Part shown: one piece after another, positions 41,321-42,406 of the stretch
How the letters are laid out: each line of letters opens with the position of its first letter
Numbering within the stretch: the stretch's first letter is position 1
NCBI RefSeq assembly: GCF_000721495.1
Contig: NZ_JOHY01000042.1
Coordinates: 1 to 61,182, forward strand
DNA: 61,182 nucleotides
Reading direction: 5' to 3'
Source of the DNA: Streptomyces sp. NRRL F-5123
Lineage (GTDB): Bacteria > Actinomycetota > Actinomycetes > Streptomycetales > Streptomycetaceae
Notes under the pieces: generated by a model
Told to the model about the DNA's origin: nothing
The model's input: the letters and a program-made list of their open reading frames with translations, nothing else
Databases searched by the model: none
Position numbers and translations under genes: made by a program

Positions 41321-41580
41321 ATGACCTTGCCCAGGAGGCTCCTGTGGTGTGGGGAATCGGCGCGCTCATTCCCCGCGGGCACCGGGCCGACACCCGTACG
41401 GCGGTGCAGTGCTCGGATGACCCGGTGGTCGATGCGGCTTACGGCGGCCTCATTTGACGAATATGTCTGCCGACATCGGGTCTCTGGAGCGGATTTGCCC
41501 GCGCGTGAGCGGGGTGCGCGGGCACGCCGCTCCCTCCGTGCCCCCGACCGTAATGCCGGTATTTGCTACCCTTGGGGCGA

Positions 41581-41622
41581 CCCGACGAGCGCGTCGTACC
41601 GGGACCCTGCAAAGACGGCGCA
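41581..41622 (+). promoter_or_regulatory. Guanidine-III (ykkC-III) riboswitch
   Basis: The sequence from CCCGACGAG (41581-41589) to AAAGACGGCGC (41611-41621) matches the conserved guanidine-III core, including ACGAG, GUACC and AAGACGGCGC. P1 is formed by GCGTCGT (41591-41597) with ACGGCGC (41615-41621), with one G-U pair. The pseudoknot is CCCG (41581-41584) with CGGG (41600-41603); relative to the usual CCGG/CCGG this is a compensatory change. A -10-like TACCCT (41567-41572) would start transcription just before it. It is directly upstream of a Gdx/SugE exporter gene. An alternative stem, CACCCCCGT (41621-41629) with ACGGAGGTG (41642-41650), would hide the Shine-Dalgarno when the aptamer is unbound. 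Confidence 0.88.
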
Positions 41623-41655
41623 CCCCCGTAAATCCCCGATCACGGAGGTGCCGTC

Positions 41656-41976
41656 ATGGCATGGGTCCTTCTTGTCGTCGCAGGCCTGCTCGAGGTCGTC
41701 TGGTCGGTCGGTATGAAATACACCGACGGCTTCACCCGGCTGTGGCCCAGCGTGGCCACCGGCGCGGGCATCGCCGCCAGCATGGTCCTGCTCGCGCAGG
41801 CGGCCCGCACGCTGCCCATCGGCACGGCGTACGGCGTCTGGGTCGGCATCGGCGCGGCGGGCGCCGCCGTCGCCGGGATGCTGCTGCTGGGCGAGCCCAC
41901 GACCGCCGCGCGGATCTTCTTCGTCGCCCTGCTGATAGCCGCCGTCGTCGGCCTCAAGGCCACCTCGGGCCACTGA
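41656..41976 (+). CDS. gdx: SMR-family guanidinium exporter (Gdx/SugE subtype)
   Basis: A 106-aa, four-helix small multidrug resistance protein. It has the Gdx features rather than those of EmrE: VAGLLEVVWSVGMKYTDGFT (residues 8-27) with the essential Glu and the WxxGxKY segment, LPIGTAYGVWVGIGAAGAAV (about 53-72) and GLK near the end. These proteins work as antiparallel dimers that export guanidinium in exchange for protons. The guanidine-III riboswitch in the 5' leader independently supports the substrate. GGAGG at 41644-41648 is the ribosome-binding site. Confidence 0.93.
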   Translation: MAWVLLVVAGLLEVVWSVGMKYTDGFTRLWPSVATGAGIAASMVLLAQAARTLPIGTAYGVWVGIGAAGAAVAGMLLLGEPTTAARIFFVALLIAAVVGLKATSGH

Positions 41977-42046
41977 CCAGCACGGGAAGCGACTCCTCCG
42001 GGGGCGGGGCCTTCTGCCGGCCCGCATCCCGGAGGAGACTGGAGCC

Positions 42047-42406
42047 ATGACCGCGACCTACCGGGACACCTGGATCCGCTGCACCGACGACGCGATACGC
42101 ATCCGCGGCTACTACTTCCCCTGGGGCACCAAGAAGATCCCCTACGGCTCGCTCGCCGCGGCGAAGCGGGTCCGGCTCGGCCCGATGACCGGGCAGTTCC
42201 GGATGTGGGGCACCGCCGGCTGGACGGTGTGGGCGAGCCTCGACCCGGGCCGGATGCGCAAGAGCGAGGGCGTGATGCTGGACACCGGACGCCGGGTGCG
42301 CGCGCTCGTCACGCCCGCGGACGTCGCCGCCTTCCTGGCCGCACTGGACGCGCACGACGTCCCGGGCGCGCGGCCCGACGGCACCGGCCAGGACGGCAGG
42401 ACCTGA
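42047..42406 (+). CDS. Hypothetical protein, possible PH-like small beta-barrel
   Basis: A 119-aa soluble protein without signal peptide. It starts with alternating beta-strand patterns (DTWIRCTDDAIRIRGYYFPW, GTKKIPYGSLAAAKRVRLGP) like bacterial PH-like domains, then MWGTAGWTVWASLDPGR and a final helix VTPADVAAFLAALDAHD. I recognise a family of short actinobacterial proteins but no function. GGAGGAG lies upstream of the ATG. It is 70 bp after gdx and 29 bp before the peptidase, so all three could share a transcript. Confidence 0.75.
   Translation: MTATYRDTWIRCTDDAIRIRGYYFPWGTKKIPYGSLAAAKRVRLGPMTGQFRMWGTAGWTVWASLDPGRMRKSEGVMLDTGRRVRALVTPADVAAFLAALDAHDVPGARPDGTGQDGRT

Follow-up and report, generated by a model that had tools for sequence, protein, structure and literature searches.

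The window analysed here, a stretch of 61,182 nucleotides, carries a guanidine-III riboswitch upstream of gdx, a gene for a predicted guanidinium exporter, and raises the question of which pairing would hide the ribosome-binding site when no ligand is bound. The riboswitch class and its likely role as a translational ON switch are already known. In excerpts of the 2017 structure paper, guanidine-induced folding is proposed, in general terms, to expose the ribosome site, the mechanism of guanidine-II and -III riboswitches is called 'less well established', and no specific competing helix is named (PMC5696562). A sequence-only reading of the window suggested such a helix, a local hairpin over the Shine-Dalgarno (SD) sequence that extends into the aptamer, and described a complete translational ON switch. 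The riboswitch class, the exporter, and a fold that hides the SD and competes with the aptamer are all retained below, but 'complete' is an overstatement.

The guanidine-III aptamer

The covariance search that the sequence-only reading proposed as a check returns a significant match to RF01763 (Guanidine-III) at 41560–41624 on the forward strand, with 39.8 bits (gathering threshold, 36; E = 7.7e-5) over the full model (1–67). RF01763 is the sole Rfam family above its cut-off in the window, and a search of the genome gave no second match to it at E ≤ 0.001, indicating that the element is real and belongs to the guanidine-III class. The motifs named in that reading are found by direct reading where it placed them: ACGAG at 41585–41589, AAAGACGGCGC at 41611–41621, CACCCCCGT at 41621–41629, ACGGAGGTG at 41642–41650, and ATG at 41656. 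Guanidine-II (mini-ykkC) likewise exerts translational ON control, as inferred from its nearness to the ribosome site, and is composed of two hairpins joined by loops, unlike the fold in the window (PMC5696562); it has no Rfam match in the window.

We follow the helix naming and the T. fusca numbering of the crystal-structure paper, where P1 is the 4-bp pseudoknot helix and P2 is the 7-bp helix (PMC5696562). The helix that the earlier reading called P1 is P2 in this scheme, and P1 is the CCCG/CGGG helix. On the forward strand, the P1 5′ strand CCCG (41581–41584) pairs with the P1 3′ strand CGGG (41600–41603), as read directly, and the forms that differ among relatives remain complementary. The RF01763 alignment places the conserved ACGA and the third strand in ACGAGC (41585–41590), with the site residues as described in PMC5696562. 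The P2 5′ strand GCGUCGU (41591–41597) includes the ligand-contacting G17 (41596), and its partner ACGGCGC (41615–41621) is given by the RF01763 match and its listed pairs. P1 and P2 are joined by ACCCUGCAAA (41604–41613), and GACGGC (41614–41619) corresponds to G34–C39 of the aptamer. Besides G17, the ligand contacts C6 (41586) and G7 (41587) are present, and equivalents of A5, C6, G7, G17, A19, C20, G29, A32, A33, and G34 are all found in the RF01763 alignment; the roles of these ligand-site and core residues are taken from PMC5696562.

The element shares with the T. fusca guanidine-III (ykkC-III) structure 5NWQ the ACGA core, GUAC, and AAGACG, a two-helix H-type pseudoknot with complementary P1 and P2, the contacts C6, G7, and G17, and an SMR exporter downstream (PMC5696562). 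It differs in having a third strand that is one base shorter and a U15–G38 wobble in P2. Its aptamer is ordinary, and it adds one member to a known riboswitch class; guanidinium binding and ligand-raised expression of gdx are predicted.

The sequence-only reading had set the pseudoknot helix apart, since CCCG/CGGG stands in place of the CCGG/CCGG of the RF01763 consensus. Both strands are present, but the form is no peculiarity. Among 222 distinct gdx leaders, CCCG/CGGG is found in 110, CCGG/CCGG in 82, GCGG/CCGC in 18, CCTG/CAGG in 10, and CTGG/CCAG and TCGG/CCGA in one each. The pseudoknot was therefore rejected as a sign of a new variant, CCCG/CGGG being the commonest form among the collected leaders. 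The pattern behind the 222 leaders demanded all four P1 pairs, so that P1 pairing is no result in that set. With a pattern demanding three of four pairs, all four are present, in six sequence forms, in 170 of the 172 loci that matched; two of 174 loci lacked the pattern, and one of the two three-pair loci (L171) is plainly in the wrong place. In an alignment of 26 leaders from the genus, the aptamer pairs are formed in 97.6% of 286 cells, and their covariation score is reached by 6 of 500 shuffles. P1 and P2 are complementary, with covariation, among relatives.

At aptamer positions 30–31 the window has CA, where the consensus has AC. An altered ligand specificity was considered and rejected, because more CCCG leaders have GCAAAG at positions 29–34 than any other form (63 of 110) and the gene is still gdx.

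Two further features of the aptamer vary among leaders. An apparent base-triple swap is seen in the 222 leaders (for example, in L037 and L040 from Streptomyces): A10 goes with A38 in 96 of 96 and G10 with G38 in 81 of 85. In the 93 leaders with GAC as third strand, C15–A38 is found in 90 and U15–A38 in 3. The crystal structure shows a C15–G38–G10 triple (PMC5696562), in which A10/A38 may replace G10/G38, as judged from counts that ignore kinship. Long insertions in the P1–P2 joining loop are found in five Streptomyces leaders (L087, L106, L068, L114, and L116), and some of them seem capable of forming hairpins.

The downstream gene

The aptamer is followed by gdx (41656–41976, forward strand), encoding a 106-residue SMR-family protein that matches PF00893 with 97.6 bits. 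The NCBIfam SugE model, which is made for SugE and not for Gdx as a whole, gives a near miss (124.8 bits; cut-off, 126). The best solved relative is PDB 6wk5, an SMR-family protein (E = 7.7e-34), which we take to be the guanidinium exporter Gdx-Clo. The product carries E13, W16, S42, Y59, and W62. These are the substrate-site residues of Gdx-Clo, and W16 is conserved in Gdx and is Gly or Ala in Qac (PMC7695847). The family match and the five residues common to Gdx-Clo and this actinobacterial protein, W16 above all, point to the Gdx subtype of SMR transporters. The exporter proposed in the earlier reading is thereby supported as a gene of the export or breakdown context of guanidine-III riboswitches, with guanidinium export as its predicted function.

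Between gdx and the next ORF (42047) lies an inverted repeat, CTCCTCCGGG (41993–42002) and CCCGGAGGAG (42028–42037). The repeat (41993–42037) overlaps GGAGGAG near the start of that ORF.

Distribution of the riboswitch

The share of genomes with an RF01763 match is 27 of 35 in the genus, 352 of 394 in the family, 63 of 298 in a sample of the phylum, and 59 of 120 in a second family. The aptamer precedes all 80 gdx loci kept, which are the best 80 of at least 258 confirmed, from named genomes. For the comparisons below, 263 loci were collected. A strict aptamer is lacking in 21 and found in 242, of which 11 lack a gdx-like product, and the remaining 231 leaders reduce to 222 distinct ones. These form an uneven sample of the phylum, 75 of the 222 being from named Streptomyces. 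A set of 14 leaders before other genes was drawn from the loci without a gdx-like product (9 of 11) and those without a strict aptamer (5 of 21); L157 and L158, with starts about 100 nt away, were left out. Spread on plasmids was rejected, as a megablast comparison with 72,556 plasmid records gave no near match.

Three leaders of the genus (L004, 614–1489, reverse strand; L005, 1580–2458, forward strand; L006, 1580–2452, forward strand) place the riboswitch before a metallo-β-lactamase-fold protein, with no gdx; the fold is assigned by PF00753 for L005 and by likeness for L004 and L006. Nine others (L008, L024, L138, L144, L202, L246, L248, L260, and L263) place it before a small, hydrophobic-looking protein. 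A Pfam scan of the small proteins of L024, L138, and L202 (83–99 residues) gave no match, and the remaining six were grouped by their first residues.

The predicted transcript start

An extended −10-like element (TGnTAnnnT), TGCTACCCT, lies at 41564–41572 on the forward strand, 8 nt upstream of P1. Its position would place the transcript start at about 41578–41581, within a few bases of P1. TGnTAnnnT is found 4–11 nt upstream of P1 in 98 of the 222 leaders (shuffles: mean, 0.8; maximum, 3), and TAnnnT is found at the same spacing in 99 of the 110 CCCG leaders. A scan for consensus sigma-70 promoters found none. For the 26 bases preceding P1, a folding energy of −4 kcal/mol or below is obtained in 99% of the 82 CCGG leaders and 46% of the 110 CCCG leaders. 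The difference fits a loss in the CCCG group of the 5′ hairpin of the Rfam model, which we attribute to the promoter occupying that place. The leader in the window would have no room for this hairpin if transcription starts where predicted.

The predicted OFF fold

The minimum free energy (MFE) fold of 41579–41673 is a hairpin of −43.3 kcal/mol (z = −3.75) that would represent the OFF state; 200 dinucleotide shuffles average −31.0 kcal/mol and none is as good. In this fold, ACCCCCGU (41622–41629), the local anti-SD strand, pairs with ACGGAGGU (41642–41649), which holds the SD sequence GGAGG (41644–41648) by direct reading. Further out, GACGGC (41614–41619) pairs with GCCGUC (41650–41655), the GUC of which abuts the AUG. 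We refer to this helix as the start-codon latch; its pair probability is 0.999 in a model without pseudoknots. The fold adds a helix between 41601–41610 (the P1 3′ strand, 41601–41603, and the loop, 41604–41610) and 41659–41669 (codons 2–5 of gdx), which likewise uses the aptamer. The AUG sits in a small internal loop between the latch and this loop/coding-region helix.

The 9-bp SD-covering pairing of CACCCCCGU with ACGGAGGUG proposed in the sequence-only reading is there, but with a C41625–A41646 mismatch. The proposed extension (41616–41619 with 41650–41653) captures an outer helix with GACGGC, but the extension and C41621:G41650 both need G41650; in the predicted fold the inner stem begins at 41622:41649. 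The local stem (41622–41629/41642–41649) amounts to −7.0 kcal/mol alone and −9.9 kcal/mol with 41621:41650. The core of the proposed hairpin (41621–41629/41642–41650) overlaps the aptamer by a single base, C41621, and could therefore persist with ligand bound. Alone it makes a poor switch, and in the model the SD may remain partly covered by it when ligand is bound. The loop/coding-region helix was missed, as the proposed coordinates stop short of a pairing that runs past the start codon into codons 2–5. The weight of the competing helix should be placed at the start codon and beyond, not on the local hairpin.

In three other leaders (L046, L096, and L172, all Streptomycetaceae), the SD GGAGGUG is changed to AAGGGUG or AAAGGUG, and CACC after P2 is still matched.

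Once everything up to the end of P2 is removed, the computed cost of opening the region from SD to AUG falls from 20.4 to 13.6 kcal/mol. The same difference has a median of 0.7 kcal/mol at background starts and reaches 6.8 kcal/mol or more in 4.7% of them (n = 300, from 541 starts). The modelled ON-state cost of 13.6 kcal/mol compares with a background median of 8.8 kcal/mol, and 12% of the 300 are as high, which would count against a fully open ON state. With P2 at −9.3 kcal/mol and the downstream fold at −12.8 kcal/mol, the OFF fold is favoured in a comparison without P1 and the triplex, both of which lie outside the energy model. The affinity for guanidine is about 60 μM (PMC5696562), and on these model energies the margin looks hardly suppliable by such a ligand at equilibrium. 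Because the OFF fold looks far too stable for this, we infer that the switch, if it works, probably acts during transcription.

The proposed start-codon latch among leaders

GUC directly 5′ of the start codon, complementary to the GAC of the aptamer, is found in 164 of the 222 leaders and in 55 of 716 background starts (ORFs with an SD picked by a script and not by annotation, some of which may be false). By group, it is found in 20 of 29 relatives, 70 of 75 named Streptomyces, 32 of 39 other family members, 14 of 32 leaders of the phylum sample, and 28 of 47 of the second family. When leaders are split by the distance from GAC to the start, it is present in 46 of 81 short ones (below 36 nt) and 118 of 141 long ones. 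GUC also precedes the starts of other genes in 10 of 14 leaders: three of three for metallo-β-lactamase-fold proteins, seven of nine for the small uncharacterised proteins, and none of two for arginase-family proteins (one, three, and one gene, respectively, being covered by a Pfam scan and the rest grouped by first residues). In the leaders compared, GUC thus accompanies the aptamer before gdx and two other gene families.

The next position outward varies as well. In the 164 GUC leaders, base −4 is A or G in 10 and C or U in 22 of those with U37, and A or G in 5 and C or U in 127 of those with G37 (Fisher's test, 3e-5, with kinship ignored). In a swap test, own pairs of the P2 3′ strand and the sequence before the AUG were compared with swapped pairs in 2000 permutations. 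The own pairs score better in all leaders (z = −5.3; 0 of 2000) and in short leaders (z = −3.5; 2 of 2000). The result is not significant in the genus (z = −1.0), in a further set of 86 long leaders of the CCCG/CCTG forms, of which 75 are from named Streptomyces (z = +0.8), or in other long leaders (z = −1.3). In the last two groups the anti-SD swap test gives no support either (z = +1.8 and +0.6). When the 222 leaders are folded without pseudoknots, the latch pair exceeds a probability of 0.5 in 111, P2 in 6, and neither in 105.

Across the genus alignment, 93.0% of 602 cells keep the OFF pairs, compared with at most 48.9% when the pairing is slid. Shuffling gives a covariation score as high as that of the OFF fold in 230 of 500 cases, indicating no excess of covariation in the genus, and three of the latch pairs are disrupted, in 5, 7, and 11 of the 26 sequences. 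From this alignment RNAalifold predicts P2, a portion of the local anti-SD stem, and some further pairs; the latch is absent.

The predicted loop/coding-region helix

The loop/coding-region duplex of the window has an energy of −17.8 kcal/mol, which is reached by none of 541 background coding starts paired with the same loop. The duplexes of the genus range from −14.6 to −24.7 kcal/mol; elsewhere the median is −8.05 kcal/mol and the best is −18.8 kcal/mol. The helix is paired in 98.5% of cells in the 26 genus leaders, with changes from G–U to A–U in two and from A–U to G–U in two. Because the sequence hardly varies in the genus, this is conservation and not covariation. The alanine at codon 2 of gdx is encoded by GCA in all 26 genus leaders, compared with 7 of 423 later alanine codons; outside the genus, GCA is found in 30 of 143 leaders with alanine there. 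Swap tests of the helix are not significant in the genus (z = −1.0), other long CCCG/CCTG leaders (z = +1.4), other long leaders (z = −1.2), or short leaders (z = −1.0).

Mechanism and alternative explanations

The explanation that we consider probable, though by no means assured, is a guanidine-III translational ON switch on gdx with the start-codon latch as the competing helix. Transcription would begin at the aptamer, probably near 41579, and P1 (41581–41584/41600–41603) and P2 (41591–41597/41615–41621) could form first during RNA synthesis. With guanidinium bound, P1 and P2 would persist and P2 would keep GACGG. If no ligand is bound, the aptamer's 3′ half would refold, 41601–41610 pairing with codons 2–5 and GACGGC with GCCGUC before the AUG, and ACCCCCGU would pair with ACGGAGGU as well. 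The SD and the start codon would be locked in a single long hairpin, so that no Gdx would be made. Two points count against this explanation: folding without pseudoknots favours the OFF state, and in T. fusca, P1 and P2 are reported to have been still paired without ligand in earlier in-line probing (PMC5696562).

That the local hairpin (41621–41629/41642–41650) alone is the switch, the latch and coding pairings being incidental, is not very likely. Its four pairs adjoining P2 (columns 44:76 to 47:73) are each intact in at least 25 of the 26 genus sequences, RNAalifold recovers it in part, its two loop-side pairs are changed on both sides in two sequences each, and the anti-SD swap test in the genus gives z = −2.0 (61 of 2000 permutations as good). 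However, its only base in common with P2 is C41621, so that it could form alongside the aptamer; the two loop-side pairs are open in 5 and 8 of the 26 sequences; and the swap test runs in the wrong direction in the 86 other long CCCG/CCTG leaders (z = +1.8). In addition, the 81 short leaders have little or no room for the stem, and 46 of them still have GUC. Control mainly through mRNA stability, where the ligand-bound 5′-terminal pseudoknot stops 5′-scanning RNase E and SD masking is secondary, appears unlikely. Protection from RNase E is stated for guanidine-III in an excerpt of a 2025 review (PMC12186494, citing Richards and Belasco 2021), and with the predicted −10 element 8 nt before P1 the aptamer would be the 5′ end of the mRNA. 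This route leaves unexplained both the GUC at the start codons of gdx and two other families and the GCA at codon 2, and it is compatible with the start-codon latch and does not exclude it.

It is also quite improbable that the aptamer is real but regulation weak or absent, the GC-rich start region being complementary by way of the conserved MAWVL codons and a common SD context. The genus sequences are close, so that conservation partly reflects shared descent, neither the latch nor the loop/coding-region helix gains significant support from swap tests in the genus, codon-2 GCA is raised outside the genus too, and one leader from outside the genus has a stronger loop/coding-region duplex than the window (−18.8 and −17.8 kcal/mol). 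Such a reading is opposed by the enrichment of GUC across families and genes, by the fold z of −3.75, and by the window loop, which pairs with its own coding region better than with any of the 541 background starts. Transcription attenuation is disfavoured as highly improbable: the leader does have a long GC-rich hairpin, but this covers the start codon and no U tract is found in the leader, and terminator-based control was rejected, with no terminator-like site in 41400–42100.

Implications

It is quite possible, if on balance doubtful, that actinobacterial guanidine-III riboswitches share the start-codon latch, in which GAC(G) of the aptamer pairs with (C)GUC fixed next to the start codon, both for gdx and for two or more other gene families. 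In the genus the pairing would take up most of the aptamer's 3′ half, joining it to the SD, the surroundings of the start codon, and codons 2–5, and the OFF state would be too stable to switch at equilibrium, so that guanidine would have to be read during transcription. A search of titles and abstract beginnings in the open-licence PMC literature found no description of a GUC-AUG latch, which may nevertheless have been described before. The start-codon latch is set apart here from the local anti-SD hairpin, and the loop/coding-region pairing offers a reason for the rare alanine codon at position 2 of gdx in the genus. The recurring complementarity of GUC-AUG with GAC would assign the missing helix to a specific position that can be tested in many species.
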